Source: Acetobacteraceae bacterium AT-5844
GTDB taxonomy: Bacteria; Pseudomonadota; Alphaproteobacteria; Acetobacterales; Acetobacteraceae
Length of the DNA stretch: 50,197 nt
Direction of reading: 5' to 3'
NCBI GenBank assembly: GCA_000245075.1
Contig: JH599927.1
Coordinates: 1-50,197, forward strand
Part shown: piece after piece, positions 5,062 through 25,958 of the stretch
How the letters are laid out: each line of letters opens with the position of its first letter
Numbering within the stretch: position 1 is the first letter of the stretch
Notes under the pieces: generated by a model
Databases searched by the model: none
Seen by the model: the letters and a program-made list of their open reading frames with translations, nothing else
What the model was told of the DNA's origin: nothing
Made by a program: the position numbers and the translations under genes

Positions 5062-5067
5062 GGATCC

Positions 5068-5093
5068 GGCGGGAGGGTTTCGGCCCTCCCGCC
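5068..5093. terminator. Bidirectional hairpin terminator between ilvE and ridA
   Basis: A perfect 10-bp inverted repeat, GGCGGGAGGG (5068-5077) and CCCTCCCGCC (5084-5093), with a 6-nt loop sits in the 47-bp gap between the convergent ilvE and ridA stops. It lacks a long T tract, but its position and stability fit a shared terminator. Confidence 0.75.
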
Positions 5094-5108
5094 TTCAGTG
5101 ACGACGCG

Positions 5109-11424: not shown

Positions 11425-12231
11425 CTACCGCGCGGGAGCGGCTTCCATGGCCGCGCCCGCGCGACGCAAGGCGGGATCGAACGGATTGAGGCGGGTGGCG
11501 ATGGCCCCCGCCTCTTTCTTCAGGAGGTCGGCTACCAGTTGCCGCCGGTCCGGCCCCAGCCGGTCCGTGGTGGTGCCGATGCTCAGCGCGGCGACGGCCC
11601 GCCCATCCTTATCCAGCAGCGGCACGCCGAGGCCCGCCATGCCGGGCAGCACGCCGGGCATGATGGAATAGCCTTCCTTCCGCACACGCTCGATTTCCTC
11701 CCGCAGCACCGGCTCGTCCGAACCGCCGAGGTCGCGGATGCGGGGCAGGTTGTGGCGGATGATTTCCTCCCGCTCATCCACCGGAAGGCAGGCCAGGATG
11801 GCGGTGGAACCCTGCCCGAGCCCGAGCGGCACCCGGCCGCCGATATCGCCCGTGAAGGAGCGGATGGGCAGCGGCCCGGCGCTGCGATCGATGCAGATGG
11901 CATCGTAGCCATTGTGCACGAGCAGGAAGACGGTCTCCCCCAGCAAGGCGGTCAGGCGCAGCAGGGCAGGCCGGCTGAGGTCCCGCAGCCCGGCGGGGTT
12001 GCCGGCCTTGGAGGCCAGCAGGAACAGCGTGAGCCCCAGGCGGTAGCGGCGCGCGGCGGCGTCGTGCTCCACGAAGCCCTCGCTGACCAGCATGCGCAGA
12101 ATCCGGTGCGCGGTGGGGCGTGGGAGGGAAGCGGCCTCGGCAATGTCGCTCAGGCGCTGGCCGCCCGGCCCGGCATCCGCCAGCAGGCGGAGGATATGCA
12201 GGCCGCGCGGCAGGCTGCCGGTTGTGTCCAT
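11425..12231 (-). CDS. IclR family transcriptional regulator
   Basis: A 268-residue regulator with an N-terminal winged helix (residues ~5-70: GLHILRLLADAG through SLPRPTAHRILRMLVSEGFV) and the C-terminal IclR effector domain (to ~250, including GLGVPLLDKDGRAVAALSI). IclR proteins bind small aromatic or organic acids and typically control an adjacent catabolic operon. This one diverges from the ten-gene hydantoinase block across a 176-bp gap with candidate operators, so it is the likely regulator of that block. An effect on dctA is less likely given the latter's sigma-54 control. Confidence 0.9.
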   Translation of the reverse strand: MDTTGSLPRGLHILRLLADAGPGGQRLSDIAEAASLPRPTAHRILRMLVSEGFVEHDAAARRYRLGLTLFLLASKAGNPAGLRDLSRPALLRLTALLGETVFLLVHNGYDAICIDRSAGPLPIRSFTGDIGGRVPLGLGQGSTAILACLPVDEREEIIRHNLPRIRDLGGSDEPVLREEIERVRKEGYSIMPGVLPGMAGLGVPLLDKDGRAVAALSIGTTTDRLGPDRRQLVADLLKKEAGAIATRLNPFDPALRRAGAAMEAAPAR

Positions 12232-12270: not shown

Positions 12271-12310
12271 ATAATTCCATATATCGAAATTATGAAGCTT
12301 CGACTGTCAA
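12271..12310. promoter_or_regulatory. Divergent iclR/hyu control region: candidate operators and iclR promoter
   Basis: This locally AT-rich stretch holds TTC-N8-GAA (12275-12288) inside a dyad with ATAATT/AATTAT arms (12271-12293), and a second inverted repeat TCGAA-N10-TTCGA (12284-12303). On the minus strand TTGACA (12310-12305), a 17-nt spacer and TCGATA (12287-12282) form a plausible sigma-70-type promoter for iclR, overlapped by both dyads. This is what an autoregulated IclR repressor would show. The assignment is inference; no plus-strand promoter for the hyu block is equally clear. Confidence 0.4.
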
Positions 12311-12407: not shown

Positions 12408-14480
12408 ATGGCGCGTTGGCGGGTCGGTGTGGATTCCGGCGGCACCTTCACGGATGTCTGCCTGTTCGACGAGGAAGAAGGCCGCGTCGAAGTCTGGAAA
12501 GTCTCCTCCACGCCGGATGACCCTTCGCGCGGCATCGCCCAGGGCGTCGAGGAAGGCATGCGCCGCGTGGCGCCCGAGGCGGGCGAGAAGCCAGCCGCGC
12601 CGGTGAGCTATTTCGGCCATGGCACCACGGTGGCGACCAATGCGCTGATCCAGCACCGGGGGGTGAAGACCGGGCTGGTGACGACAGACGGCTTCCGGGA
12701 CCTGCTGGAAATCGGGCGCCAGAAGCGGCCGGATCTCTACGACATTCAGGCGGACAAGCCCCCGGTTCTGGTGCCGCGCGACTTGCGGCAGGAAGTGCCG
12801 GAGCGGGTGCGCCATGATGGCAGCATCGACACGGCGCTGGATGAGGCGAAGATGCGTGCCGCCGCCGTGGCCTTGCGCGAGGCGGGGGTGAAGGCCGTCG
12901 CCGTCTCCTTCCTCTATGGCTTTATCCGGCCAGAGCATGAGGCGCGGGCGGTGGAAATCCTCCGCGAGGAAATGCCGGACGCCTTCATCAGTGCCGGGCA
13001 CGAGATCGCGCCGGAATTCCGTGAGTATGAGCGGCTGAGCACGGTGGTGCTGAACGCCTATCTCGGCCCGGTCATGCGCTCCTATATCGAGAGGCTGACG
13101 CCGCGCCTGGAAGCGCTGGGCATGACGGCGACGCCGCATCTGACGCAGAGCAATGGCGGCGTCATCGGCTTCGCCGCGGCGGCGGGGCTGCCGGTGCGCA
13201 CGGTGCTCTCCGGGCCTTCTACCGGCGTGGTGGGCGCGCAGGCCATCGGCAAGCTGGCGGGGTTCGAGGACCTCATCACCTTCGACATGGGCGGCACCTC
13301 CACCGATGTGGCGCTGCTACAGGGCGGCCAGTGCCGGCTGACTAGCGAGGCGGTGGTGCATGGCTACCCCATCAAGGCACCGATGCTGGATATCCACACG
13401 GTGGGTGCCGGTGGCGGCTCCATCGCTTATGTCGATGCGGGCGGGCTGCTGAAGGCGGGGCCGCGTTCCTGCGGCGCCTTCCCGGGACCTGTCTGCTACG
13501 ACCAGGGGAATGAGGAACCCGCCACCACCGACGCCAATGTGGTGTTGCAGACGCTGAACCCGACGCATCTGCTCGGCGGCCGCATGGCCATCCGGCAGGA
13601 CCTTTCCAAGGCCGCCATCCAGAAGCTGGCGGACAAGCTTGGCCTCGGGCTGATGGAAACCGCGCAGGGCATCCTCTCCGTCGTCACGGCGAATATGGCC
13701 CGCGCCATTCGTGTCATTTCCGTGCAGCGCGGGCATGACCCGCGCGACTTCACGCTGATGGCCTTCGGTGGCGGCGGCCCGCTGCATGCGGCGCGGCTGG
13801 CGAAGGAGCTGGACATGAAGCGCGTGCTGGTGCCGCGCAATCCGGGCATCCTCTGCGCCATGGGCCTGTTGCTGACGGATCTGCGCGCCGATTTCGCGGC
13901 GACGAAGCTGTTGCCGTTGGTGCAGGGTTCCATCGGCGAGGTGGCGGATGGGTTTGCCACGCTGGTGGCACGCGCGGAGGATTGGTTTGCGCATGAGGAG
14001 ATTGCGCCCGGGGACCGCGTGCTGACCCGCACGGCGGACATGCGCTATGCCGGCCAGAATTACGAACTGGCCGTGCCGCTGCCGGAGGGGCCGGTGACCG
14101 CCGCCACGCTGGATGCGCTGGCCGCCGGGTTCGAGGATCTGCACCGCCAGCGCTATGGCTTCATCGCGGAAGGGGAGGCGGTGCAGATCGTCACCCTGCG
14201 GCTGGAGGCCACGGGCAAGGTGCGCAAGGCCGCGCTGCCGCGCTTCCCCGAGGCGGGGCCGGATGCCTCCGGTGCCATCACCGGCCAGCGCCCCGTCTGG
14301 TTCCCCGAGGCGCAGGACTTCGTGCCCACGCCGATCTACCGCCGCGAGGGGCTGAAGCCGGGCAACCGCTTCGCCGGCCCTGCCATCGTCGAGCAGATGG
14401 ACACGACCACCGTGGTGCCGCCCGGCATGAGCGCGCGTGTCGATCCCTATCTCAACCTCATCCTGGAGGTCGTGGCATGA
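12408..14480 (+). CDS. Hydantoinase/oxoprolinase family protein, A subunit (first copy)
   Basis: A 690-residue subunit of the ATP-dependent hydantoinase/5-oxoprolinase/acetone-carboxylase A superfamily. The N-terminal nucleotide-binding strand is GVDSGGTFTDV (~residues 7-17). HGTTVATNALIQHRG (~69-83) and the second ATPase segment FDMGGTSTDVALL (~289-301) follow. The metal-site region CGAFPGPVCYDQGN is present but deviates from the usual CYGxGG pattern. ATG 12408 follows GAGGAGG (12394-12400). It overlaps hyuB1 by 4 bp; the two should form one enzyme opening a cyclic amide or imide with ATP. It opens the ten-gene block; the substrate is not determinable. Confidence 0.88.
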   Translation: MARWRVGVDSGGTFTDVCLFDEEEGRVEVWKVSSTPDDPSRGIAQGVEEGMRRVAPEAGEKPAAPVSYFGHGTTVATNALIQHRGVKTGLVTTDGFRDLLEIGRQKRPDLYDIQADKPPVLVPRDLRQEVPERVRHDGSIDTALDEAKMRAAAVALREAGVKAVAVSFLYGFIRPEHEARAVEILREEMPDAFISAGHEIAPEFREYERLSTVVLNAYLGPVMRSYIERLTPRLEALGMTATPHLTQSNGGVIGFAAAAGLPVRTVLSGPSTGVVGAQAIGKLAGFEDLITFDMGGTSTDVALLQGGQCRLTSEAVVHGYPIKAPMLDIHTVGAGGGSIAYVDAGGLLKAGPRSCGAFPGPVCYDQGNEEPATTDANVVLQTLNPTHLLGGRMAIRQDLSKAAIQKLADKLGLGLMETAQGILSVVTANMARAIRVISVQRGHDPRDFTLMAFGGGGPLHAARLAKELDMKRVLVPRNPGILCAMGLLLTDLRADFAATKLLPLVQGSIGEVADGFATLVARAEDWFAHEEIAPGDRVLTRTADMRYAGQNYELAVPLPEGPVTAATLDALAAGFEDLHRQRYGFIAEGEAVQIVTLRLEATGKVRKAALPRFPEAGPDASGAITGQRPVWFPEAQDFVPTPIYRREGLKPGNRFAGPAIVEQMDTTTVVPPGMSARVDPYLNLILEVVA

Positions 14481-16129
14481 GCCAGGCTGTCTCTCAGGCC
14501 ACGGCGCCGGTTCTGGACCCGATCACCGTAGAGGTGATTGGTGCCGCGCTGTCCTCCATCGTGGAGGAGACGGGCGAGGCGCTGATCCGTGCCTCCTACT
14601 CCACGAATATCAAGGAGCGGCGGGACTGCTCCACCGCCCTGTTCAACGCGGCGGGCGAGACGCTGTGCCAGGCGGAGCATATCCCCATCCATCTGGGCAG
14701 CTTCATCGGCATCATCCCGCACATCATGGCGAAGCACCGGGTGGAGGATATGCGCCCGGGCGATGTGTTCGTCGGCAACGACGCGTATGAGGGCGGTGGC
14801 ACACATCTGCCGGATATCGTGCTGGCCGAGCCGATTTTCGTGGATGGCAGGATCGCTGCCTGGACGGTGAATCTGGCGCATCACTCGGACTTCGCCGATC
14901 GCGGGCACGCGCATATCTACCAGGAAGGGCTGCGGATTCCGCCTGTGCGGTTGTATCGCGCGGGCGTGCTGCAGGAAGACGTACAAAATCTCATCCTGCT
15001 GAACTGCCAGGTGCCGCATGAGCGCCTTTCCGACCTGCGGGCGCAGATGGCCGCCAACCGCGTGGGCGTGCAGCGCTTCCAGGCGCTGTGCGCGAAGTAT
15101 GGCGCGGAGACCGTTCTGGCGGCGGCGGATGAATTGCTGAACTACGCCGAGCGGAAGATGTGCGCGGGTATCGCCGCCATGCCGGACGGCACCTGGCATT
15201 TCGAGGACGTGTTCGACCCGATCGACACCGCTGACAACATGCCCTTCAAGGTGAGCGTGACGGTCGAAGGCGACAGCATGTCGCTGGATTTCGACGCGCC
15301 GGATCAGCGCCGCGCCGGCATCAACATGACCTATACCGCGCTGCTGGCGACGGTGTACTACATCGTCAAATCCGTGGTGGACCCGAGCATCCTGCCGAAT
15401 GCCGGCCTCGCGCGGCCGCTGAGCGTGACGGCACGCAAGGGCAGCATCCTGAATTGCGAGCACCCGGCGGCGGTGAATGGGCGCCTGGCGGCCTGCCAGC
15501 GTGTGTCGGATCTCATTCTGGGCGCCATCGCGCAGGCGGCGCCGGAGAAAGTGACGGCCTGCTCCAACTCCGTCTGCACGGTGGCGAGCTTCATCGGCCA
15601 GCGGAAGAGCGACGGCAAGCTGTGGGTCTATCTGGAGACCATGGGCGGCGGCAGCGGCGCGCGGCACAACAAGGACGGGCTGGACGGCGTTCATGTGCAC
15701 ACCACCAACACCTCCAACCTGCCGGTTGAGGCACTCGAAATCGAGTATCCGCTCACGCTGCTGCGCTATGAGCTGGTAGAGGAGTCGGCGGGCGACGGGC
15801 AGTACCGCGGCGGCATGGGCCTGCGGCGTGTCTATCGCGCCGATGAGGATTGCATGGTGCGCGTCGATATCGGCCGGTTGCGCTCCAGGTCCTGGGGCTT
15901 GGCGGGCGGCGGCGCGGGCGGTCATGGTGCCGTTGAGTGCGGCCCGGGCGTCACCTTCCAGGGCAGCGTGGCCACGCTGAAGGCGGGGCAATGGTTCGCC
16001 GTGGTGAGCCCCGGTGCAGGTGGCTATGGCCCGGCCTCCGCCCGCGCGCCCGAGGCCGTCGCGCGGGATGTGGCGGAGGGCGTGATCAGTCCCGTCCACG
16101 CAAAGGATATCTACGCTTTTCAGAGCTGA
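14477..16129 (+). CDS. Hydantoinase/oxoprolinase family protein, B subunit (first copy)
   Basis: A 550-residue HyuB-type subunit. Recognisable are DPITVEVIGAALSSIVEETGEAL at the N-terminus, the NDAYEGGGTHLPDI motif (~residues 101-114), AHHSDFADRGH (~134-144) and the glycine-rich C-terminal GGGAGGHGAVE region. Length is normal for the family. It begins with an ATGA overlap on hyuA1 and is followed 26 nt later by a substrate-binding protein gene. Together with HyuA it forms an ATP-dependent ring-opening enzyme; other family complexes carboxylate ketones, but no acetone carboxylase gamma subunit is present here. Confidence 0.88.
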   Translation: MSQAVSQATAPVLDPITVEVIGAALSSIVEETGEALIRASYSTNIKERRDCSTALFNAAGETLCQAEHIPIHLGSFIGIIPHIMAKHRVEDMRPGDVFVGNDAYEGGGTHLPDIVLAEPIFVDGRIAAWTVNLAHHSDFADRGHAHIYQEGLRIPPVRLYRAGVLQEDVQNLILLNCQVPHERLSDLRAQMAANRVGVQRFQALCAKYGAETVLAAADELLNYAERKMCAGIAAMPDGTWHFEDVFDPIDTADNMPFKVSVTVEGDSMSLDFDAPDQRRAGINMTYTALLATVYYIVKSVVDPSILPNAGLARPLSVTARKGSILNCEHPAAVNGRLAACQRVSDLILGAIAQAAPEKVTACSNSVCTVASFIGQRKSDGKLWVYLETMGGGSGARHNKDGLDGVHVHTTNTSNLPVEALEIEYPLTLLRYELVEESAGDGQYRGGMGLRRVYRADEDCMVRVDIGRLRSRSWGLAGGGAGGHGAVECGPGVTFQGSVATLKAGQWFAVVSPGAGGYGPASARAPEAVARDVAEGVISPVHAKDIYAFQS

Positions 16130-16155
16130 AACCGAGTAGACAGGAGACTGCCCCA

Positions 16156-17682
16156 ATGCCTCCGACTCTCTCCCGCCGCGCCATGATGGCCGGCGCCGCT
16201 GCTCTCCCTTTCCTGCGGATTCCGGGTGCGCGGGCGCGCACGCCGGGTGTGCTGACCTTCGGGCTTTCCAGTTACCCGCCCACCATCCAGCCCTGGGCCA
16301 ATAGCGGTACCGCCGCGGCGACGATGAAGCTGCTGATGTATCGCGGCCTCACCTCCTATGGCGATGATGGCGCGCTGCGGGGGGAGCTGGCGGAATCCTG
16401 GGCGCAGGAGGGCAACAACGCCTGGGTGTTCAAGCTGCGGGACGCGCGCTTCCAGAATGGCGAGAAGGTGACCTCCGCCGATGTGAAATGGACGATCGAG
16501 CAAGTCGCTGACCCCAAATCCACTGCCTTCTTCCGGAACGAGATGCAGAATGTGGAGCGGGTGGAAACGCCCGATGACCGCACGGTGCGCATCGTGACAA
16601 AGACGCCGGTGGTGACGCTGCCGACGATGTTCGCCAATTACCACCTGCCGATCATCTCGCGGAATTCCGAACGTTCCAGCCCCTCTGGCGCGGGACCATT
16701 CGTGCTGAAGGCGCAGGAGAGGGGAACTTCGCTGGAGTTCGAGGCGAACCCGAACTTCTACAAGCCGGGCCTGCCGAAGCTGAAAGGCATCCGCGTCGTC
16801 GCATATTCGGACGAGAATCTTCGTGTTTCCGCGTTGCAGTCCGGCGATCTCGACCTGATCGAGTACGTGCCGTGGCAGGCGATGGATGCCATTACCGCCA
16901 ACCCGGCCCTGAAGCTGGATGCGGTGGATGGCGCCTTCATGTACCTCATGTTCAATGGTACGCGGCCGCCCTTCAATGATCACCGCGTTCGCAAGGCGGT
17001 GGCGCATGCCATTCGCCGGGACGAGCTGGTGAAGGCGGCGTTCTTCGGGCGCGGCTCTGCGCTGGAGCAATTGCCGGTTGCATCCTCCAGCCCGTTCTAC
17101 AATGCCGAATACAAGAATGGCTGGCACTACGACCCGGCACTCTCGAAGAAGCTGCTGGCGGAGGCGGGGTTCCCGGACGGCCTCTCCTGCGGCCTGCTGG
17201 CCACCGCGCAATACGGCATGCACAAGGACACGGCGGAGGTGGTGCAGAACCACTTGGCCGCCGTGGGTATCCGCTGTGAGCTGAACCTGCCGGACTGGGC
17301 GACCCGCGTTTCCATCGGAAACCGTGGCCAGTATGACCTGGCCGTGCTGGGGACGGCGGCGGACAGCAACGACCCCGATGGTATCGCGAACTTCATCGAT
17401 GGCTCGCTCTCGCCCTCCTATGTTCGCAGCTATGGGCTGAAGATCGACCGTATCTCGCAGCTTCTGGCCGCCGGCAGGGCGGAGTTCGATACCGAGAAAC
17501 GCCGGGCGATCTATCGGGAGATGGAGGGCGTCGCCATCGAGCAGGTGCCGATCGTCGGCCTGACATGGCGCAGCCAGGGCTATGCGATGAAGAAGGATGT
17601 CACCGGCTTCAAGAACCTGCCGGGGGCACTGACCTTCTATTCGGGTCTGACCTTCGAAACGGCGGCGATGGGCGGGGCATGA
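16156..17682 (+). CDS. ABC transporter substrate-binding protein, family 5 (peptide/nickel/opine type), Tat-type signal
   Basis: A 508-residue periplasmic SBP_bac_5 protein. The N-terminus PPTLSRRAMMAGAAALPFL is a twin-arginine-like signal with likely cleavage after ARA near residue 28. The body has family landmarks: LAESWAQEGNNAWVFKLRDARFQNGEKVT in scattered blocks (residues ~75-115) and NDHRVRKAVAHAI (~275-287). The ATG at 16156 has AGGAG at 16142-16146. It sits inside a cytoplasmic-enzyme operon, and no permease or ATPase gene occurs anywhere in the window. It must therefore share a transporter encoded elsewhere or act as a periplasmic binding/sensing protein. Confidence 0.87.
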   Translation: MPPTLSRRAMMAGAAALPFLRIPGARARTPGVLTFGLSSYPPTIQPWANSGTAAATMKLLMYRGLTSYGDDGALRGELAESWAQEGNNAWVFKLRDARFQNGEKVTSADVKWTIEQVADPKSTAFFRNEMQNVERVETPDDRTVRIVTKTPVVTLPTMFANYHLPIISRNSERSSPSGAGPFVLKAQERGTSLEFEANPNFYKPGLPKLKGIRVVAYSDENLRVSALQSGDLDLIEYVPWQAMDAITANPALKLDAVDGAFMYLMFNGTRPPFNDHRVRKAVAHAIRRDELVKAAFFGRGSALEQLPVASSSPFYNAEYKNGWHYDPALSKKLLAEAGFPDGLSCGLLATAQYGMHKDTAEVVQNHLAAVGIRCELNLPDWATRVSIGNRGQYDLAVLGTAADSNDPDGIANFIDGSLSPSYVRSYGLKIDRISQLLAAGRAEFDTEKRRAIYREMEGVAIEQVPIVGLTWRSQGYAMKKDVTGFKNLPGALTFYSGLTFETAAMGGA

Positions 17683-18368
17683 GAGATCTGGCTGGCAAGG
17701 TGGTGATGGTCTCCGGTGCCGCGCGCGGCATCGGGCGGGCGGTGGCGGAGAGGCTGCTGGCCGCGGGCTGCCAGGTCAGCGCGGGGGTGCGGGATGTCAG
17801 CCGCGCCCCGCAGGGGAGCGCCGGCTTCGCCTATGACGCCACGCGGCAGGGCAGCGCCCAGGGCTGGGTGGATGAGACAGTGGCGCGCTTCGGGCGGGTG
17901 GATGCGCTGGTGAATGCGGCCGGCATCAATCCGCGCGCCAGTTTGCTGGAGGGGCCCGACGATGCCTTCCAGGATTTATGGTCGGTCAACGCCATGGGGC
18001 CGATCCATGTGATCCGCGCGGCATGGCCGCATCTGGTGGGGGGCGGCGAGGGCCGGGTGATCAACATTTCCTCGCTCTCTGGCAAGCGGGTGCGGAACGA
18101 CAATCTCGGCTACGCCATGAGCAAGTTCGCGGTCATGGCGCTGACCCAGGAGGTGCGACGGCTGGGCTGGGATCACGGCATCCGCGCGACGGCGCTCTGC
18201 CCCGGCTTCGTCGATACAGACATGACGGCACATGTTACCAAATGGCCGCGTGACAAGATGTCGCGCCCCGAGGATCTGGCGCTGATCGCGGAGATGCTGC
18301 TGCGCCTTTCCAGCACCGCCTCCGTGGCCGAGCTGCTGGTGAATTGCCGGCACGAGGACACGCTTTGA
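17679..18368 (+). CDS. SDR family NAD(P)-dependent oxidoreductase
   Basis: A 229-residue classical short-chain dehydrogenase. The cofactor motif SGAARGIGR is at residues ~12-20, NAAG at ~75-78, and the active-site pair Y-x3-K in YAMSK (~146-150) with upstream catalytic Ser in NISSLSGK. An acidic residue typical for NAD preference is not obvious, so cofactor choice is open. It begins in an ATGA overlap with the SBP gene and ends in a TTGA overlap with the small ferredoxin-like subunit. It should oxidise or reduce an alcohol/ketone intermediate of the same pathway. Confidence 0.88.
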   Translation: MRDLAGKVVMVSGAARGIGRAVAERLLAAGCQVSAGVRDVSRAPQGSAGFAYDATRQGSAQGWVDETVARFGRVDALVNAAGINPRASLLEGPDDAFQDLWSVNAMGPIHVIRAAWPHLVGGGEGRVINISSLSGKRVRNDNLGYAMSKFAVMALTQEVRRLGWDHGIRATALCPGFVDTDMTAHVTKWPRDKMSRPEDLALIAEMLLRLSSTASVAELLVNCRHEDTL

Positions 18369-18640
18369 AGCTCACGCGTCTGCGCGACACGGCGCGCCCT
18401 GCCATCTCCCTGCACCTGGAGGGCGAGGCCGTGGCCGCCATGCGGGGCGACACGCTGCTCACGGCGCTGCTCGCCGGCGGTGCCGGGCATCTGCGGGAAA
18501 GTGAGTTCGGAGACGGGCACCGCGCGGGCTTTTGCCTGATGGGTGCGTGCCAGGATTGCTGGGTGGTGGTGGAAGGCATGGGGCGCGTGCGGGCCTGTGC
18601 CACGCTGGCGCAGGATGGAATGAAGGTACGGCGGGGATGA
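18365..18640 (+). CDS. [2Fe-2S] gamma subunit of an HcnA/opine-oxidase-type amino-acid dehydrogenase
   Basis: A 91-residue protein with a Fer2_4-type fold. Cysteines in FCLMGACQDC (C-x4-C-x2-C) and a fourth in VRACATL give a complete plant-type [2Fe-2S] site. Such small subunits occur with the FAD alpha and beta subunits encoded next (HcnABC, nopaline/octopine oxidase, D-hydroxyproline dehydrogenase). TTG 18365 is preferred as start because it overlaps the SDR stop (TTGA), keeping the operon's coupling pattern. A TTG at 18344 would add seven residues. The role is electron transfer between flavins and the acceptor. Confidence 0.87.
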   Translation: MKLTRLRDTARPAISLHLEGEAVAAMRGDTLLTALLAGGAGHLRESEFGDGHRAGFCLMGACQDCWVVVEGMGRVRACATLAQDGMKVRRG

Positions 18641-19992
18641 AGGTCGCGGTGGTGGGAGCCGGCCCGGCCGGCGTGCGCGCGGTGGAGACACTGCTAGCCC
18701 ATGGCATCCGCCCGGTCTGGATCGACGAGGCGATGGATGGGGGCGGGCGCATCTATCAGCGCCCACCCGCCGGCATGCAGCGGGATGCGAGGACGCTGTA
18801 TGGCTTCGAAGCCTCGCGGGCCACGGCGCTGCATGCCGCGCTGGATGCCGCGAAGGCGCGCGCGGATTGGCGGCCCGAGACGTTGGTGTGGAACATCCGC
18901 CCCGGCCAGAAGCAGTTGAACACGCTAAGCCAGAGCCGCCAGGGCGTGGTGGCTTACGATGCCGTCATTCTCTGTACCGGCGCCATGGACCGCGTGGTGC
19001 CGGTGAAGGGATGGACGCTGCCGGGCGTCACCACCATGGGCGGGGCGCAGATCGCCTTGAAGTCGCAGGGCTGCGGGATTGGCCGACGGGTGGCTTTCCT
19101 GGGGAGCGGGCCGTTGCTCTGGCTGGTGGCCTATCAATACGCGAAGGCGGGGGCTGAGGTGGCGGCGGTGCTGGACACCACGCCCTTTGCCACCAAGCTG
19201 GCGGCGGCGCCGGGTATGCTGCGCGGCCCTGCCACTTTCGCCAAAGGCCTCTACTACATCGGCTGGCTTCGCACCCATGGCATCCGCATCGCGGAAGGCG
19301 TCACGCCGCTGGCCATCGAGGGGGATGAGACTGTGGCCGGAATATGCTGGCGCGATGCCAAGGGTGTGGAGCAGCAAGTGGCGTGCGATGCCGTGGGGAT
19401 TGGCTGGGGCCTGAAGCCGGAAGCGCAGCTCGCTGATCTGGCCGGCATTCCCTTCGATTTCGACGACGTGCAGCATAATTGGGTGCCAAGGCGGGATGCC
19501 GCCGGGCGCACGCCTGTGGCAGGTGTCTATCTTGCGGGGGATGGCAGCGGCATCGGCGGCGCGGAGGTCGCGGAGCTGGCTGGCACGCGGGCCGCGTTGT
19601 CCCTGCTGCAGGATGAAGGAAGGGCGGTTGAGACCGCGGCGCTTGACCACAAGCTGGCTTCGCTGGCGCGCTTTCGCGTGGCGCTGGAAAAGGCCTTTCC
19701 TTTCCCTGCCCATCTCGCTGTGTCCTTGCCGGACGATGCGCTGTTCTGCCGCTGTGAGGGGCTGACGGTGGGTGACCTTCGCGTCACCACTACCGGCCCC
19801 ACCTTGCCGGCCCCTGAGATGAACCGCGCCAAGGCGGTCAGCCGCGCGGGGATGGGGCGGTGCCAGGGGCGTGTCTGTGGGGCCGCGGCGGCGGAGATCC
19901 TGGCGGCGAAGCTGGGGTGTTCCGTGGCCGAGGTCGGGCGCCTGCGCGGGCAGGCCCCGGTGAAGCCCATTCCGCTGGTGGCGGCGCCATGA
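18637..19992 (+). CDS. FAD/NAD(P)-binding alpha subunit with C-terminal BFD-like [2Fe-2S] domain (HcnB/SoxA-like)
   Basis: A 451-residue pyridine nucleotide-disulfide oxidoreductase-fold subunit. The N-terminal dinucleotide motif is VVGAGPAGVRA (~residues 5-15); a second Rossmann motif, FLGSGPLLW, lies near 156-164. The C-terminal BFD-like domain keeps four cysteines: C-x-C in FCRCEG (~370) and C-x4-C in RCQGRVC (~409-414). This architecture is characteristic of the alpha subunit of heterotrimeric amine/imino-acid dehydrogenases. It overlaps both neighbours by 4 bp (ATGA), so gamma, alpha and beta are made in order from one message. Confidence 0.88.
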   Translation: MKVAVVGAGPAGVRAVETLLAHGIRPVWIDEAMDGGGRIYQRPPAGMQRDARTLYGFEASRATALHAALDAAKARADWRPETLVWNIRPGQKQLNTLSQSRQGVVAYDAVILCTGAMDRVVPVKGWTLPGVTTMGGAQIALKSQGCGIGRRVAFLGSGPLLWLVAYQYAKAGAEVAAVLDTTPFATKLAAAPGMLRGPATFAKGLYYIGWLRTHGIRIAEGVTPLAIEGDETVAGICWRDAKGVEQQVACDAVGIGWGLKPEAQLADLAGIPFDFDDVQHNWVPRRDAAGRTPVAGVYLAGDGSGIGGAEVAELAGTRAALSLLQDEGRAVETAALDHKLASLARFRVALEKAFPFPAHLAVSLPDDALFCRCEGLTVGDLRVTTTGPTLPAPEMNRAKAVSRAGMGRCQGRVCGAAAAEILAAKLGCSVAEVGRLRGQAPVKPIPLVAAP

Positions 19993-21119
19993 GCGGCACT
20001 CGCTGCGATGTGCTGATTATCGGCGCGGGCGGGGCAGGGTGTTCCGCCGCGCTGCATCTGGCGCTGCGCGGCAGCAGGGTGGTGCTGCTGGAGCGCGGAC
20101 TGGTCGGGGGGCAGGCCTCGGGCGTGAATTACGGCGGCGTGCGGCAGCAGGGGCGCAACCCCGCCGAGCTGCCGATCGCGCGTAAATCCCGCGAGATTTG
20201 GGGGCGCATGAAGGCGCTGGCGGGGACGGAGGCGGAGTTCACCGTTACCGGCCATCTGAAGCTCGCCCGGAACGATGCGGAGGAGGCGGAACTCATCGCC
20301 TATCTGGACGTGGCGAAGCAGTATGGGCTGCCGCTGCGCATGGTGGGCCGCAATGCCCTGCATGGCGAATATCCCTGGCTTGGCCCCAAGGTCCTGGCTG
20401 GCTCCTTCGCGCCGGAGGACGGCTCGGCCAATCCCCGGTTGATGGCCCCGGCCCTGGCCCGCGCGGCCCGTGATGCGGGTGCCGCCATCCATGAGCGGAC
20501 GGAGGTGATGAGCTATGCGCATGATGGCGCGTTGTTCCATCTGCGCACTGTGCGAGGGGAGGAGTTCTCCGCGCCGGTCCTGCTCAATCTCGCGGGCTTT
20601 TGGGGCGGCCGCGTCGCCGAGGCGTTCGGGGAAGCGGTGCCGGTGAAGCCGCTGAGCCCGAACATGCTGGTGACCGAGCCGATGCGCTATTTCATCGAGC
20701 CCAATCTCGGCGTGGTGGGTGGCAATGTGTATCTGCGCCAGATTCCACGTGGCAACGTCATCATCGGCGGCGGCTATGGGGAGAGTAACCCCGGCGAGCC
20801 TGGTGAGATGCCGTGGTCCCGCCCGGTGCCAGAAGCGACGATGGAGGCTGCCCGTCTCGCCATCGCTCTGGTGCCGGAGTTGGAGGGGGCGCAGATCATC
20901 CGCTCCTGGAGCGGTATCGATGGGCAGATGCCGGACAGGATTCCTGTGATCGGCCCCAGCAGCACCACGCCGGGCCTGTTCCACGCCTTCGGCTTTTCCG
21001 GGCATGGCTTCCAGCTTGGGCCGGCCATCGGCGCCATCATGAGCGAGCTGGTGCTGGATGGGCGCACGGATGTGCCGCTGGAGGCATTTCGCATCACCCG
21101 CTTCGCGGAGGCCGGCTGA
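19989..21119 (+). CDS. FAD-dependent oxidoreductase, DAO family (beta, catalytic subunit)
   Basis: A 376-residue D-amino-acid-oxidase-fold flavoprotein. The FAD-binding motif LIIGAGGAGCSAA occurs at residues ~7-19, followed by LLERGLVGGQASGVNYGGVR (~33-52), and the C-terminal FAD contact GLFHAFGFSGHGFQLGP near ~325-341. DAO beta subunits of this complex type oxidise proline, hydroxyproline, opines, sarcosine or glycine. The residues seen do not fix the substrate. It completes the gamma-alpha-beta set and ends 19 nt before the kinase gene. No covalent-flavin sarcosine-oxidase partner genes (soxBDG) are present. Confidence 0.88.
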   Translation: MSGTRCDVLIIGAGGAGCSAALHLALRGSRVVLLERGLVGGQASGVNYGGVRQQGRNPAELPIARKSREIWGRMKALAGTEAEFTVTGHLKLARNDAEEAELIAYLDVAKQYGLPLRMVGRNALHGEYPWLGPKVLAGSFAPEDGSANPRLMAPALARAARDAGAAIHERTEVMSYAHDGALFHLRTVRGEEFSAPVLLNLAGFWGGRVAEAFGEAVPVKPLSPNMLVTEPMRYFIEPNLGVVGGNVYLRQIPRGNVIIGGGYGESNPGEPGEMPWSRPVPEATMEAARLAIALVPELEGAQIIRSWSGIDGQMPDRIPVIGPSSTTPGLFHAFGFSGHGFQLGPAIGAIMSELVLDGRTDVPLEAFRITRFAEAG

Positions 21120-21138
21120 TCCGCTATCGGCGGGCGTG

Positions 21139-22134
21139 ATGTACGACCCGCCTTTTCTCCACCATCTCCAGGGATTGCTGCGCGAGGCCCTGCCACGCTG
21201 GGGCATGCCGCGAGAGGCCGCGCTCTCCCTGTTGAACGTCTCCGAGAACGCCACCTTCCTGGCCGAGGGAGGGGGGCGCAAACTTGTTCTTCGCGTTTAT
21301 CGCCAGGGCTACCACCAGCCGGCGGAAATGCAGTCCGAGCTGGCCTGGATCATGGCGGTGAGGCGGGAGGGGGTGGTCGAAACCCCCGCGCCGGTGCCGG
21401 GCGGGGATGGGCAGGTGTTGCAGGCGCTGCCCGATGGCGAGTTGCTGCGCAATATCGCCGCCTTCGAGTACATGGAGGGCGTGGAGCCGCAGGAAAGCGG
21501 CGACCTGGTGCCCTGGTTCCAGCAATTGGGCGCCATCACCGCCAGGCTGCATGCCCATGGGCGCAGCTGGCAGCCTCCCGCTGGCTTTACCCGCAAGCGC
21601 TGGGACTTCACGACCATGCTGGGGCAGGCGCCGCATTGGGGGCGCTGGCAGGATGCCATGGGCCTCGATACCGAGGGAGAGGCGGTGCTCGCCCAGGCCG
21701 CGGACAGGTTGCGGCACAGGCTGGCACGGTATGGAGAGGCGCCGGACCGCTTCGGGTTGGTGCACGCGGATCTGCGCCTCACAAATCTGCTCGCGGAAGG
21801 CAAGCGGCTTGGCGTCATCGATTTCGATGACAGCGGGTTCTGCTGGTATCTCTACGATTTCGCGGCGTCGGTGAGCTTTATCGAGCACGAGCCGGTGGTG
21901 CCGGCACTGATGCGCGCCTGGGTCGAGGGCTATCGGCAGGTCGGATCGCTGGCGGAGACGGATATCGCGATGCTTCCGGCATTCGTGATGCTGCGGCGGA
22001 TGCTGTTGACCGCCTGGCTGGCATCTCACGCAGAAACGCCCACGGCGCAGGCGTTGGGCGCGGGCTACACGGCGGGAACCGTGGCTTTGGCCCGCCGTTT
22101 CCTGCAAGGGAACCTCTGGCATATCGATTGCTAA
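21139..22134 (+). CDS. Phosphotransferase, APH/homoserine kinase type II family
   Basis: A 331-residue protein-kinase-like small-molecule kinase. The catalytic loop HADLRLTNLL (~residues 209-218, H-x-D-x4-N) and metal-binding IDFDDSGFCWYLYDFA (~228-243) are intact. The family includes homoserine kinase II, SrkA, hydroxylysine kinase and choline kinases; the DFDDSGF-x-WYLYD pattern is closest to the RdoA/ThrB-like group. In this operon it probably phosphorylates a hydroxylated amino compound, not an antibiotic. ATG 21139 is chosen because family similarity starts there, although the frame is open upstream into the DAO gene. Confidence 0.82.
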   Translation: MYDPPFLHHLQGLLREALPRWGMPREAALSLLNVSENATFLAEGGGRKLVLRVYRQGYHQPAEMQSELAWIMAVRREGVVETPAPVPGGDGQVLQALPDGELLRNIAAFEYMEGVEPQESGDLVPWFQQLGAITARLHAHGRSWQPPAGFTRKRWDFTTMLGQAPHWGRWQDAMGLDTEGEAVLAQAADRLRHRLARYGEAPDRFGLVHADLRLTNLLAEGKRLGVIDFDDSGFCWYLYDFAASVSFIEHEPVVPALMRAWVEGYRQVGSLAETDIAMLPAFVMLRRMLLTAWLASHAETPTAQALGAGYTAGTVALARRFLQGNLWHIDC

Positions 22135-22171
22135 CCGGTAAGCTCCTGACGACGAGATCCTGGGAGTTGCC

Positions 22172-24262
22172 GTGTTGCAGACCTCGCCTCCTGTCCGGTT
22201 GGCCGCCGATATCGGCGGCACCTTCACCGATGTTGTCCTGGATGCGGGGGGTACCCGCCGAACCCGTAAGGTTCTGACCACGCCGACAGCACCGGAGGAG
22301 GGCGTGCTGAACGGCGTCTCCCTGGTGTTGGAGGATGCGGGGCTGCATTTCTCCGATATCGACGTCTTCGTGCACGGCACCACGCTGGCGACCAACGCCA
22401 TCATCGAGCGGCGCGGCGCGAAGACGGCGCTGATCGCCACGCAGGGCTTCCGCGATGTGCTGGAGATCGGCACGGAGAGCCGGTACGACCAGTACGACGT
22501 CTTCATCGAGAAGCCGGTGCCGCTGGTGCCGCGCGCCTTGCGCTTCACGGTGCCGGAGCGGGTGGATGCGGAAGGCGCCATTCGCCTGCCGCTGGACGAG
22601 GCGGCCGTGGCGGCGCTCGCGCCGGAGCTGGAGAAGGCGGGCGTGCAGAGCGTGGCCTTCGCCTTCCTCCACGCCTATGCCAACCCGGCGCATGAGCAGC
22701 GCGCGGCGGCCGTGCTGAAGGCGCTTCTGCCGGGTCTTTCCATCACCCTGGCCAGCGAGGTGTGCCCCGAGGTGCGGGAGTATGAACGCACCAGCACCGC
22801 CGTCGCCAACGCCTATGTGCAGCCGCTGATGGAAGGCTATCTTGGCCGGATGCGGGATGCGTTGCAGGCGCGGCAGTATCGTGGCGCGACTTATCTCGTC
22901 ACCTCCGGCGGGGGGCTGACATCACTGGAGACGGCGCAGAAATTCCCGGTGCGCCTGGTGGAATCCGGCCCGGCGGGCGGCGCGATCTTCGCCGCGCAGG
23001 TGGCCATGCGCGCGAAGGAGGACAAGGTTCTCTCCTTCGACATGGGCGGCACCACGGCGAAGGTCTGCCTCATCGAGAATGGCGAGCCCGCCACCTCCCG
23101 CTTCTTCGAGGTGGACCGCACCGCGCGCTTCCTGAAAGGCTCCGGCCTGCCGCTGCGTATCCCCGTGATCGAGATGGTGGAGATCGGCGCGGGTGGCGGC
23201 TCCATCGCGCAGGTGGATGCCATGCAGCGCGTGGCCGTGGGGCCGGAGAGCGCCTCCTCCGTGCCGGGCCCGGCCTGTTACGGCCTGGGTGGCACGCGGC
23301 CGGCGGTGACGGATGCCGATGTCGCCATGGGGCTTATCGAGCCGAAGGGTTTCGCGGGCGGCAGCATGACGCTGCGGGACGATCTCTCCCGCGACGCGCT
23401 GAAGCGGGATATCGGCGACAAGCTCGGGCTTTCCGCCGAGATGTCCGCTTATGCCGTGTATGAGATGGTGTGCGAGAACATGGCGAGCGCCGCCCGCGTG
23501 CATGCCGCCGAGCGTGGGGCCGTGATCGGGCAACACACCATGATCGCCTTTGGCGGCGCCGCGCCGCTGCATGCCGCGCGTGTGGCGGAGAAGGTGGGCG
23601 TCAGCCGCGTGCTGGTGCCGCCCAATGCCGGCGTGGGCTCGGCCGTCGGCTTCCTGGCGGCGCCTGTCGCGTATGAAATTGTCCGCTCCCGCCATGCGCG
23701 TGTCGATGAGAGCTTCGACAGCGCTGGCGTCTCCGAATTGTTCACGGAGATGACGGCGGCGGCGAAGGCGTTGGTGGAACCGGGCGCGCGGGGCGCACCG
23801 CTCTTCGTGCGGCGGATGGCCTTCATGCGCTATGTCGGCCAGGGGCATGAGATCACGGTGGTGCTGCCGGAGCATGACCTGACGGCGGCGGATGTGCCGG
23901 AGCTGCGCCGGATCTTCGAGGCGGAATACGCAGCGCAATTCGCGCGCATCATTCCGGCGGCGGCGATCGAGGTGCTGAACTGGTCCGTGCTGGTCTCGAC
24001 AGAGGCGAAGAAGCCGGAGGCGGTGGCGAGCGTGCCGGCCGCCGCGGCACCGAAGCCGAGTGGCGTGCGCTGCATCTTCGATGGCCGCACCGAGAAGAAG
24101 ATCGACGTGCCTGTCTATCAGCGGAACGCCATGCCGCCTGGGGCCGTCGTGCCGGGGCCTGTGGTGATCGCCGAGGATGAGACGACCACCTATGTCTCCG
24201 CCAGCTTCGATGCGCATATCGACGGCGCAGGCTGCATCGTGATGGAAAGGAAGGCGGCATGA
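22172..24262 (+). CDS. Hydantoinase/oxoprolinase family protein, A subunit (second copy)
   Basis: A 696-residue second HyuA-type ATPase subunit. ADIGGTFTDVVLD (~residues 11-23), HGTTLATNAIIERRG (~69-83), SFDMGGTTAKVCLIE (~289-303) and the canonical SSVPGPACYGLGG (~367-379) are all present. It differs widely from the first copy, reading CYGLGG where that has CYDQGN, so the two are old paralogues and not a recent duplication. GTG 22172 follows GGGAG at 22162-22166 after a 37-nt gap, the largest in the operon. It overlaps hyuB2 by 4 bp. Likely reaction: ATP-dependent opening of a hydantoin- or oxoproline-like ring. Confidence 0.89.
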   Translation: MLQTSPPVRLAADIGGTFTDVVLDAGGTRRTRKVLTTPTAPEEGVLNGVSLVLEDAGLHFSDIDVFVHGTTLATNAIIERRGAKTALIATQGFRDVLEIGTESRYDQYDVFIEKPVPLVPRALRFTVPERVDAEGAIRLPLDEAAVAALAPELEKAGVQSVAFAFLHAYANPAHEQRAAAVLKALLPGLSITLASEVCPEVREYERTSTAVANAYVQPLMEGYLGRMRDALQARQYRGATYLVTSGGGLTSLETAQKFPVRLVESGPAGGAIFAAQVAMRAKEDKVLSFDMGGTTAKVCLIENGEPATSRFFEVDRTARFLKGSGLPLRIPVIEMVEIGAGGGSIAQVDAMQRVAVGPESASSVPGPACYGLGGTRPAVTDADVAMGLIEPKGFAGGSMTLRDDLSRDALKRDIGDKLGLSAEMSAYAVYEMVCENMASAARVHAAERGAVIGQHTMIAFGGAAPLHAARVAEKVGVSRVLVPPNAGVGSAVGFLAAPVAYEIVRSRHARVDESFDSAGVSELFTEMTAAAKALVEPGARGAPLFVRRMAFMRYVGQGHEITVVLPEHDLTAADVPELRRIFEAEYAAQFARIIPAAAIEVLNWSVLVSTEAKKPEAVASVPAAAAPKPSGVRCIFDGRTEKKIDVPVYQRNAMPPGAVVPGPVVIAEDETTTYVSASFDAHIDGAGCIVMERKAA

Positions 24263-25914
24263 GCGCGCAACCCGGCCTGATCGACCTCCAGATCATGTGG
24301 AACCGCCTGATCGCCGTGGTGGGCGAGCAGGCGCAGGTGCTCATCCGCACCGCCTTCAGTCCCATCGTGCGGGAATGCGAGGATATCTCCGCCGGTGTGT
24401 TCGACCTGAAGGGGCGGATGCTGGCGCAGGCGGTGACGGGCACGCCGGGCCATGTCAATTCCATGGCCGAGGCGGTGAAGCACTTCATCCGCCACTTCCC
24501 CGTGGAGACGATGAAGGAGGGTGACGCCTACATCACCAACGACCCGTGGATGGGCACGGGGCATCTGAACGACTTCGTCATCACCACGCCGGCCTTCCAC
24601 AAGGGCAAGCTCGTCGGCCTTTTCTCCTGCACCAGCCACCTGATGGATATCGGCGGGCTCGGCAATGGGCCCGAGGCCAGCGATGTCTTCATGGAGGGGC
24701 TCTACATCCCCATGCTGAAGCTCATCGACCAGGGCAAGGTCAATGAGACGCTGATGGCCATGATCCGCGCCAATACGCGGCTGCCGGTGGATACGGAGGG
24801 CGATACCTATTCCCTCGCCGCCTGCAATGACGTCGGCTGCCGCGCGCTCTCCGCGATGATGGATGAATTCGGCATCGACACGCTGGAGCCGCTGGCCGAG
24901 CATATCATCGCCCGCTCGCGCGAGGCGGTGCTGGCGGAGATCGCCAAGCTGCCAAAGGGGAGCTGGTCCTACAGCATGATGGTGGATGGCTACGACCATC
25001 CGCTGGAGCTGAAGGCCAGGCTGACCATCAGCGACGACAACATCCATGTGGACTACACCGGAACGTCCGAGGCGGCGAAGCGCGGCATCAACGTGCCGAT
25101 CGCCTATACCACCGCCTATACCGTGTTCGGCCTCGGCTGCATCGTTGCCGCGCATATTCCGAACAATGCGGGCTCGCTGGCGCCGCTGACGGTCTCCGCG
25201 CCGCCGGGCGCCATTCTCAACGCGCAGAAGCCGGCGCCCGTCTCCTCCCGGCACATCATCGGGCAGATGCTGCCGGATATGGTTTTTGGCTGTTTGCGGC
25301 AGGCGATTCCAGACCGGGTTCCGGCGGAGGGCACGTCCTGCATCTGGAATATCGTCGTGCGTGGCACATGGGCCCGGCCGCATGGGCCGAACCATGGTTA
25401 TGCGCTGGCCATCACCACCAATGGCGGCACCGGCGGTCGCCCGGCGCAGGATGGGCTTTCGGCCACGGCCTATCCCTCCGGCGTGCACGGCACTCCGGTG
25501 GAGATCGCCGAGATCCAGTCCCCGGTGATGTTCTGGCGGAAGGAATTCCGCCCGGATTCCGGCGGAGCGGGCCGCCAGCGCGGCGGGCTTGGCCAGATCA
25601 TGGAAATCGAGAACCGGGACGATGCGCCATTTGAGTTGCTGGCGGCGTTCGACCGTATCCAGTATCCGCCGCGCGGTCGGGATGGCGGCGCGGATGGTGC
25701 CGCGGGCTATGTCGGCCTCGGCACGGGGGACGTGCTGCGGGGAAAAGGCTTGCAGGTCATCCCGGCCGGGGAGCGGCTGGTGGTGCTGACCCCGGGGGGT
25801 GGTGGCCTCGGCAATCCCACGGAGCGTGACCAGGCCAAGGTCTCGGCCGACCTGAACAATGGATTGATCTCACCCGAACATGCGGCGCGCCATTACGGGG
25901 TGGCGGCGGAGTGA
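24259..25914 (+). CDS. Hydantoinase/oxoprolinase family protein, B subunit (second copy)
   Basis: A 551-residue HyuB-type subunit. DLQIMWNRLIAVVGEQAQVL is the N-terminal family block, NDPWMGTGHLNDF (~residues 94-106) the conserved metal/substrate motif, and GGTGGRPAQDG plus a GGGGLGNP tail follow. The motif differs from NDAYEGGGTHLPDI of the first copy, again pointing to distinct substrates. It pairs with the overlapping hyuA2. It is the last gene of the block; a 12-bp hairpin with a short T-rich tail follows 7 nt after the stop. Confidence 0.89.
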   Translation: MSAQPGLIDLQIMWNRLIAVVGEQAQVLIRTAFSPIVRECEDISAGVFDLKGRMLAQAVTGTPGHVNSMAEAVKHFIRHFPVETMKEGDAYITNDPWMGTGHLNDFVITTPAFHKGKLVGLFSCTSHLMDIGGLGNGPEASDVFMEGLYIPMLKLIDQGKVNETLMAMIRANTRLPVDTEGDTYSLAACNDVGCRALSAMMDEFGIDTLEPLAEHIIARSREAVLAEIAKLPKGSWSYSMMVDGYDHPLELKARLTISDDNIHVDYTGTSEAAKRGINVPIAYTTAYTVFGLGCIVAAHIPNNAGSLAPLTVSAPPGAILNAQKPAPVSSRHIIGQMLPDMVFGCLRQAIPDRVPAEGTSCIWNIVVRGTWARPHGPNHGYALAITTNGGTGGRPAQDGLSATAYPSGVHGTPVEIAEIQSPVMFWRKEFRPDSGGAGRQRGGLGQIMEIENRDDAPFELLAAFDRIQYPPRGRDGGADGAAGYVGLGTGDVLRGKGLQVIPAGERLVVLTPGGGGLGNPTERDQAKVSADLNNGLISPEHAARHYGVAAE

Positions 25915-25921
25915 GGCGGAA

Positions 25922-25958
25922 GGGCTGGTGGCTTGTGAGCAGCCATCAGCCCCTTTAT
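25922..25958 (+). terminator. Terminator of the hydantoinase/dehydrogenase operon
   Basis: GGGCTGGTGGCT (25922-25933) pairs with AGCCATCAGCCC (25941-25952) over 12 bp with one G-U pair and a 7-nt loop. It is followed by a T-rich stretch (CTTTATT). It begins 7 nt after the hyuB2 stop. The G-U pair exists only in the plus-strand RNA, which fits plus-strand use. Confidence 0.75.

Follow-up and report, generated by a model that had tools for sequence, protein, structure and literature searches.

A conserved ten-gene operon of Acetobacteraceae with a predicted lactam-opine-type catabolic core and a lineage-specific kinase and second lactamase

Which compound is degraded by an operon that combines two hydantoinase-type enzymes driven by adenosine triphosphate (ATP) with a three-subunit amine dehydrogenase? 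This question is raised by contig JH599927.1 (C18) of Acetobacteraceae bacterium AT-5844, which was analysed over its entire length of 50,197 nucleotides (the window; the assembly comprises 5.19 Mb). Ten co-directional genes occupy positions 12408-25914 of its plus strand: hyuA1, hyuB1, a substrate-binding protein (SBP), a short-chain dehydrogenase (SDR), the gamma, alpha and beta subunits of a heterotrimeric dehydrogenase, an APH-family kinase, hyuA2 and hyuB2. Open reading frame (ORF) calling and family profiles found all ten of the genes named in the original prediction, with 4-bp overlaps at six of the nine junctions and gaps of 26, 19 and 37 bp at the remaining three. That prediction had the block import a cyclic amide or related compound, open it with ATP in two steps and oxidise the amine. 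The general class is supported and can be narrowed by the HyuA1 and SDR clades and the relationship of the binding protein to AgaA: with somewhat better than even confidence, the core is predicted to be a lactam-opine-type catabolic operon acting on an N-substituted 5-oxoproline, either a lactam opine or a cyclised Amadori compound.

A tblastn search of plasmids with HyuA1 returned Terrarubrum flagellatum first (71% identity), followed by rhizobial and agrobacterial plasmids at 68-69%. HyuA1 is 68-71% identical to the HyuA proteins of tumour-inducing (Ti) plasmids, pAoF64/95 and Terrarubrum (68% for the octopine Ti plasmid), 43-44% to those of pTiS4 and pAtS4c, and 36% to HyuA2. On the octopine Ti plasmid (NC_002377), the HyuA1-type gene is located between the genes of a flavin adenine dinucleotide (FAD) oxidoreductase and hyuB and adjoins a peptide-type ATP-binding cassette (ABC) system. 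The binding protein beside hyuAB matches PDB entry 6HLX, which a table in PMC7312458 lists as AgaA, at 1097 bits; because its binding protein is AgaA, we assigned this neighbourhood to the aga locus. For pAoF64/95, an agropinic acid uptake operon is mentioned in a figure legend (PMC6341043). In a tree of 27 HyuA proteins, 16 aga-type rows (nine from Acetobacteraceae, the others from the Ti plasmid, pAoF64/95, R. leguminosarum, Martelella, Sagittula, Roseivivax and Terrarubrum) fall on one side of a branch with 100/100 support, and HyuA2 groups with six others on a separate branch. HyuB1 shares 64-74% identity with the HyuB proteins of eight AgaF-type loci from beyond the Acetobacteraceae, 64-66% with the Ti and pAoF64/95 proteins (64% for octopine Ti), 44% with pTiS4 HyuB and 28% with HyuB2. 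On sequence grounds, HyuA1B1 is the orthologue of the Ti-plasmid aga hydantoinase pair. In the aga pathway, AgaF and AgaG are reported to turn agropinic into mannopinic acid, which AgaE oxidises (Lyi, Jafri and Winans 1999).

Both window pairs retain the residues expected of the family. HyuA1 carries the motifs DSGGTFTD, DMGGTSTD and GAFPGP; motifs of the DxGGTxTD type and DxGGT are shared by the two HyuA proteins, and the metal positions of HyuB1 and HyuB2 alike are occupied by D, H-x2-D and H, as aligned without CapB itself. For caprolactamase, PMC8453981 describes CapA motif mutants that kept only traces of activity and four CapB metal-site mutants with none.

The SDR shows a similar relationship. 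In its tree, 12 aga-linked rows (the window, pAoF64/95, R. leguminosarum, Martelella, Terrarubrum, G675, Sagittula, Roseivivax and four other Acetobacteraceae loci) are separated by a 100/100 branch from 10 other SDRs, all of them drawn from the fetched loci. By its place in this tree, the window SDR is the orthologue of the SDR in relatives of the aga locus, where it stands beside an agaE-like gene on pAoF64/95, in Martelella and in R. leguminosarum. We also surveyed marker genes within 11 kb of HyuA1-type genes at 34 sites, chosen for HyuA1 and 26 of them from one family. The aga-type SDR occurs at 30 of these and is absent from G258, G117, G183 and the octopine Ti plasmid; at the SDR position of the latter, a short ORF (L130 14430-14636) has a 31-residue match to the SDR end (E 8e-4) and is perhaps a decayed copy. 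The gene order hyuA-hyuB-SBP-permease-permease/ATPase-ATPase-SDR-oxidase is found in Sagittula and likewise in Roseivivax, there with the permease/ATPase unannotated. From hyuA through SDR to the oxidase, the order recurs in 10 of 20 Acetobacteraceae stretches, the oxidase slot being filled by one DAO oxidase or by the trimer.

Trimer alpha and gamma genes are present at 23 of the 34 sites and an AgaE-like oxidase (at least 50% identity to Ti AgaE) at eight: octopine Ti itself, pAoF64/95, R. leguminosarum, Martelella, Sagittula, Roseivivax, G675 and G183, which is of the window's family. No site has both, and three have neither (Terrarubrum, with a 33% DAO protein only; G259, with only a 48-bit beta-like fragment; and G117, for which 10.8 kb were available). 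Because the two oxidases never co-occur within this distance, the trimer apparently replaces AgaE at the same step. Heterotrimers of the gamma-alpha-beta build are biochemically proven nopaline and octopine dehydrogenases (PMC4575208).

Among solved structures, that of AgaA (6HLX) comes nearest to the binding protein (E 4e-103, against 9.3e-41 for the second match). Its closest plasmid counterpart, at 59% identity, is that of A. vitis pAvCG78b, which is encoded beside a gamma-glutamyltransferase gene; no HyuA1 was found in the fetched stretch. Contig C114 of the same genome encodes a paralogous SBP-DppB-DppCD-DppF operon, which could, speculatively, be the source of a permease for the window operon.

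Agropinic acid, rideopine lactam and succinamopine lactam are N-substituted 5-oxoprolines. In the pathway that we propose, the binding protein would capture an N-substituted 5-oxo-L-proline, for example agropinic acid, a different lactam opine or the deoxyfructosyl-oxoproline of decaying plant matter. The lactam would be activated by HyuA1 with ATP, and the metal site of HyuB1 would open the ring to give an N-substituted glutamate. In AgaE's place, the trimer would oxidise the secondary amine via flavins and iron-sulphur clusters, with glutamate and a carbonyl compound, or 2-oxoglutarate and an amine, as products; the SDR would then process the carbonyl fragment. The kinase may phosphorylate a hydroxylated amine fragment, and HyuA2B2 may be a second lactamase added in the window's lineage; these two roles are guesses. 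Nopaline dehydrogenase liberates an amine; should the trimer do likewise, the kinase would, speculatively, have an amino alcohol as a natural substrate. The divergently encoded IclR regulator probably controls the operon from the promoter between them.

A number of observations weigh against this assignment. Of the solved proteins, an N-methylhydantoinase is nearest to HyuA1 (545 bits, compared with 460 bits for a 5-oxoprolinase), and the HyuA tree was built under a simple LG+G4 model, with a long-branch warning among its outer rows and no N-methylhydantoinase row. The binding protein is 38% identical to Ti AgaA, compared with 43% to the pTiS4 protein and 54-59% to other loci, so that its ligand may differ from that of AgaA. 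No permease genes were found in the window operon, whereas a DppB-like gene (>50% identity) occurs at 16 of 33 other sites. In the window, no AgaE was found up to 11 kb from hyuA1, the trimer standing in its place. Nor is the trimer family bound to aga substrates, and it does not define the substrate. Trimers of Azospirillum and Burkholderia (alpha 53-58%) with an orthologous IclR are accompanied by another ABC system and by no annotated hydantoinase within 10 kb, and contig C49 of the window's own genome encodes a second trimer (beta 66%, alpha 67%, gamma 71%). Gene calling over roughly 30 kb surrounding SDR-gamma-alpha-beta in G272 (L109, L147) turned up neither HyuA1 nor HyuB1. Finally, because the 34 sites were selected for HyuA1 and 26 come from one family, their counts describe an arrangement and not independent events. 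The C49 trimer (L146 7849-17634) has a divergent IclR-like gene (37%) and, beyond two genes and 3-5 kb off, a non-aga HyuAB pair (37%/32%). We read the trimer as acting on open N-substituted amino acids, coupled to different lactamases. A polyamine-type transporter at the Azospirillum and pTiS4 trimer loci was considered and is unsupported at the level of cut-offs: the best ATPase matches were to PhnT2 at 377-386 bits (cut-off 458) and to PotA at 361 and 345 bits (cut-off 482).

N-methylhydantoinase is also the name of the best solved relative of HyuA2, and the two matches would suit a hydantoin or N-methylhydantoin (creatinine-type) pathway, in which HyuA1B1 would open the ring, a carbamoylase encoded elsewhere would take off the carbamoyl group, and sarcosine or a comparable N-methyl amino acid would be the substrate of the trimer. 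The core has sarcosine-oxidase genes nearby in G225 (soxB over cut-off) and G073 (by eye), and the Sagittula and Roseivivax loci contain creatininase-annotated genes. We nevertheless consider this pathway improbable: the ten genes include no carbamoylase, the tree (lacking an N-methylhydantoinase row) places HyuA1 with the agropinic-acid locus, and several relatives have gamma-glutamyltransferase, Amadori-type or opine genes.

Because gamma-glutamyltransferase genes occur at three HyuA1 sites (Roseivivax, G675 and G259) as well as at the pAvCG78b binding-protein site, a glutamyl compound is indicated. Together with the peptide type of the ABC system, these genes would also be compatible with salvage of gamma-glutamyl compounds or plain pyroglutamate, whereby gamma-glutamyl or pyroglutamyl peptides are imported, one or other HyuAB pair serves as 5-oxoprolinase and the trimer has a D- or imino amino acid as its substrate. 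A plain 5-oxoprolinase, however, needs neither the SDR seen at nearly all surveyed sites nor a secondary-amine oxidase, and we regard such salvage as quite improbable.

An N-substituted 5-oxoproline as substrate is compatible with further neighbours. In G183, of the window's family, in G675 and in Terrarubrum, HyuA1-type genes are accompanied by a PfkB kinase and an SIS protein of the fructoselysine kinase/deglycase kind. These neighbours, matched at family level and below cut-off in G675 (212 bits to fructoselysine 6-kinase, cut-off 247; 109 bits to fructoselysine 6-phosphate deglycase, cut-off 430), fit deoxyfructosyl-5-oxoproline as a natural substrate, of which the lactam would be opened and the product phosphorylated and deglycated. 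An enolase-superfamily (galactonate-dehydratase-like) gene lies 3' of beta in L091 (16395-17567), L094 (16188-17360), L096 (2156-3328), L097 (15830-16999), L099 and L100; a sugar-acid product would fit a sugar-substituted lactam. More tentatively, and with rather less than even confidence, the Ti aga genes may descend, as one recruited branch, from an older environmental route for degrading N-substituted 5-oxoprolines (cyclised Amadori compounds and the like). The enzymes exchanged at the amine-splitting step would be one DAO protein, an opine dehydrogenase of three subunits and a kinase/deglycase pair of the fructoselysine type, and the window would have added a further solution, in which an amino-alcohol kinase and another lactamase act on an undescribed hydroxylated lactam opine.

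Genes of histidine-type degradation are found at some of these loci as well. HutF (formimidoylglutamate deiminase) is encoded beside hyuA1 or its IclR in six of 19 genomes examined, and an N-formylglutamate-amidohydrolase-family gene follows the trimer, enolase or SDR gene in five of 20 stretches. A histidine-type pathway as the main function of the operon was rejected: each of the 19 genomes has exactly one HutF (E <= 1e-80), which in those six is the copy at the cluster, and 18 have HutH (E <= 1e-60), and two FGase-like proteins scored 83 and 80 bits against a HutG cut-off of 279. G225 (L090) has the HutF of the cluster and no HutH match. About 14 kb past its core, a single 1308-residue gene with a HyuA-like start, by length probably a HyuB fusion, is followed by a further peptide-type ABC operon (L111 10832-14758).

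The synteny search advised in the original prediction recovered the ten genes in identical order in six other Roseomonas/Pseudoroseomonas loci (L031, L033, L035, L036, L037 and L038); in L037, an extra DUF1206 gene separates beta from the kinase and hyuA1 is cut by the stretch end. Because six other loci of the genus keep all ten genes in order, the block is not a chance assembly: it is a non-random, conserved operon. A search of 299 genomes of the order with the kinase found relatives of at least 70% identity only in the window's genus, in four of the 12 other listed same-genus genomes; three named Pseudoroseomonas/Roseomonas contigs have relatives at 73-74%, and L031 and G165 are probably one strain. 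Searches with alpha (47/299 genomes at E <= 1e-80) and with the binding protein (41/299 at E <= 1e-110) revealed a wider arrangement without kinase and hyuA2B2, from which the 20 Acetobacteraceae stretches were fetched. Ten of them show a divergent iclR followed by hyuA1 hyuB1 SBP dppB dppCD dppF SDR gamma alpha beta, counting L095, in which the gene caller missed one ABC gene. Permease genes are lacking in L099 and L100; SDR-gamma-alpha-beta is placed in a second, divergent operon in L104-L106; L102 is without SDR, L103 without trimer, and L107 and L108 consist of hyuA1B1 and the binding protein with no trimer. L109 (G272) has SDR-gamma-alpha-beta and no hyuA1. L103 (G259) is a partial core complementary to it: hyuA1B1, ABC genes and SDR are present, and neither a trimer nor AgaE lies within 11 kb.

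The block is thus made of two modules, a family-wide core (hyuA1B1, SBP, SDR and trimer) and a lineage-specific kinase+hyuA2B2 module, the latter being an addition in one lineage in which the permease genes are absent. Kinase and HyuA2 occur together at seven of the 34 HyuA1 sites, each of which belongs to the window's lineage. The original proposal of two successive ring openings in a single pathway finds no support in this distribution, nor in the pairs themselves, which are 36% (HyuA) and 28% (HyuB) identical with HyuA1 and HyuA2 in separate clades. A phylum-wide search with HyuA1 at E <= 1e-240 matched two of 398 genomes (the window's and G675), and independent cases are few. No empty site could be shown, the flanking orthologues (dctA-like, amidase) lying on different contigs in relatives without the block.

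The absence of kinase and hyuA2 from 27 of the 34 sites raises the question of whether kinase, HyuA2B2 and core serve unrelated substrates under a shared promoter, two operons having been joined by insertion. The surroundings of the kinase relatives elsewhere would favour such a history. Within Acetobacteraceae, 30 loci were tried and the gene caller placed a gene at the kinase in 24 (one of them a wrong ORF); a class III aminotransferase gene directly adjoins it in 13 of these. Two loci have microcompartment shell genes nearby (Pfam was run for one): EutN and BMC genes lie beside the kinase relative in L046 (10471-14169) and L049 (10565-12711), L046 also containing aldehyde dehydrogenase and class III aminotransferase genes. 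On the other hand, the ten-gene order is kept in 7/7 loci of the lineage despite divergence of the kinase to 68-74%. Because the order persists while the kinase diverged, selection seems to hold the ten genes together, and we consider a merely shared promoter unlikely, if with appreciable weight.

The kinase itself matches PDB entry 6ef6, which we take to be the 1-amino-2-propanol kinase of a Mycobacterium microcompartment, over nearly its whole length (E 1.6e-89; next match 1.5e-19). A phospholyase of class III aminotransferase fold was not found among the ten genes. Degradation of hydroxylysine or 1-amino-2-propanol was rejected as the function of the whole block, the phospholyase being outside the block and the kinase lineage-specific, and was retained for the kinase only. 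The window's own genome encodes one such aminotransferase, on C114 (L142 13694-16050), directly after a second APH kinase; the paralogous SBP-DppB-DppCD-DppF operon ends some 7 kb away, and a gene 47% identical to ones annotated creatininase is also near.

The coordinates of the operon and its flanking signals are listed in the table. Both HyuA proteins match PF05378, PF01968 and PF19278; SO_alpha_A3/BFD matches at the alpha C-terminus are weak and sub-threshold. Besides gamma, hyuA2 has a non-ATG start (GTG). The original prediction had placed the block between an IclR gene and a strong terminator. The IclR gene and a 12-pair stem are present; the terminator call rests on position and stem length, because the scanner yielded two sites in the region versus 6.1 expected in shuffles, fewer than by chance. 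An IclR homologue is divergent from hyuA1 at 18 of 26 Acetobacteraceae sites, and the window IclR is 57-59% identical to the IclR adjoining gamma-alpha-beta and a different ABC system in Azospirillum and Burkholderia. The candidate operator element (maximum score 12) scores 10-11 in seven of 15 intergenic regions, 9 in three and 7-8, the chance level, in five; mononucleotide shuffles average 7.0-7.4, and the pattern was picked after viewing the alignment. Elsewhere in the window, positions 3970-6634 encode a branched-chain aminotransferase (over cut-off), a RidA-like protein (by eye) and a 3-hydroxy-D-aspartate-aldolase-like protein (211 bits, cut-off 690), upstream of dicarboxylate transporter/sensor genes (by eye). 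No opine-plasmid genes were found on the window's contig.

Table. Features of the ten-gene block in the window, and histidine-type genes at related loci (L numbers)
Feature	Position	Strand	Basis
IclR-family regulator, divergent from operon	11425..12231	-	ORF; family by eye and homologues annotated IclR in L072/L073
Candidate IclR operator, ATTCC-N7-GAAAT, palindrome-like	12274..12290	.	Intergenic-region scoring
hyuA1, predicted ATP-binding subunit of ATP-dependent lactamase, AgaF type	12408..14480	+	Pfam/NCBIfam, tree, motifs
hyuB1, predicted metal-site subunit, AgaG type	14477..16129	+	PF02538, metal-ligand positions
Substrate-binding protein, peptide-type (family 5)	16156..17682	+	PF00496 (SBP_bac_5)
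SDR oxidoreductase	17679..18368	+	Clade; G-x3-G-x-G and S-Y-K motifs
Gamma subunit, [2Fe-2S], TTG start	18365..18640	+	PF13510 (Fer2_4); C-x4-C-x2-C-x12-C
Alpha subunit, FAD/[2Fe-2S]	18637..19992	+	PF07992 (Pyr_redox_2); GAGPAG; CxC-x35-C-x4-C
Beta subunit, FAD (DAO)	19989..21119	+	PF01266; GAGGAG and R-S-W motifs
APH-family kinase, possible amino-alcohol substrate	21139..22134	+	PF01636; HADLRLTN and DFD motifs
hyuA2, second predicted ATP-dependent lactamase subunit A, other clade	22172..24262	+	DIGGTFTD, DMGGTTAK
hyuB2, second subunit B	24259..25914	+	PF02538; metal-ligand positions conserved
Intrinsic-terminator-like stem, 12 pairs, then T-rich tail	25922..25952	+	Terminator scan
HutF	L090 1545-2894, L091 1508-2857, L094 1302-2651, L104 11080-12462, L105 10341-11723, L106 7519-8901		
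N-formylglutamate-amidohydrolase-family gene	L090 16446-17324, L091 17567-18445, L094 17360-18238, L098 2753-3628, L103 14616-15467		

Taken together, these data propose a substrate class for "hydantoinase" operons whose annotation is silent on substrate, tie them to crown-gall opine catabolism, suggest a possible origin of those plasmid genes and illustrate the apparent substitution of a three-part complex for a single enzyme, AgaE, at the same step. The candidate compounds are narrowed to agropinic acid, deoxyfructosyl-oxoproline and the lactams of rideopine and succinamopine. Nothing found points to new chemistry, but the link to Ti-plasmid opine genes is specific. That no characterised pathway has all these parts, as the original prediction held, is uncontradicted for the exact ten-gene set: no title or abstract in our literature search, which most subscription papers lay outside, described it or aga-type operons in Roseomonas. 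It does not apply to the core, which matches the aga and pTiS4 regions of Ti plasmids.

Among known systems, the CapAB caprolactamase and other ATP-dependent lactamases have the family, ATP motifs and metal ligands in common with both window pairs; the NCBIfam scores of 606 and 262 bits (pair 1) and 486 and 218 bits (pair 2), against cut-offs of 1000, indicate that neither is a caprolactamase. The window kinase shares the catalytic motifs of APH-superfamily amino-alcohol kinases such as 6ef6, with no phospholyase gene adjoining. The trimer corresponds to the opine dehydrogenase OdhABC and D-hydroxyproline dehydrogenase in build, gamma cysteine motif, GxGxxG in alpha and beta, and beta R-x-W. 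The motifs printed in PMC4575208 are C-x4-C-x2-C-x11-12-C for gamma and CxC-x15-20-C-x4-C for alpha, the latter shorter than the x35 spacing of the window alpha.

The Allorhizobium plasmid pTiS4 (NC_011982, ~234022-247133) combines hyuAB, DAO, alpha, gamma and a peptide-type ABC system in one opine-type region, as does the core with its binding protein (43% identity to that of pTiS4). It differs in that its HyuA (44%) lies outside the aga clade, that alpha, gamma and beta are 34%, 35% and 25% identical, and that the region is split over two strands and has RidA, no SDR and no kinase. A DNA search with this stretch gave full-length matches only to A. vitis/ampelinum plasmids among the best 20 of 43. 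The region is that of rideopine or vitopine. According to PMC8554961, lactamase/hydantoinase genes in the assigned rideopine region are consistent with rideopine lactam, the rideopine candidate adjoins T-DNA4 and is itself shared with pTiAB2/73, and a second region is assigned to vitopine. PMC10410297 gives a rideopine region the name RIC, with hydantoinase genes and an N-formylglutamate deformylase in members of it, and in PMC6733357 hydantoinases are proposed to open succinamopine lactams on pTiEU6.

The aga locus of the octopine Ti plasmid (NC_002377 77313-87913) differs from the window operon, which has the trimer for AgaE, no permease genes, an IclR regulator and the extra kinase and hyuA2B2. 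Common to both are the HyuA/HyuB orthologues, an AgaA-type binding protein and an FAD-dependent amine oxidoreductase beside hyuAB, and the related locus of pAoF64/95 has, in addition, the same SDR as the window.

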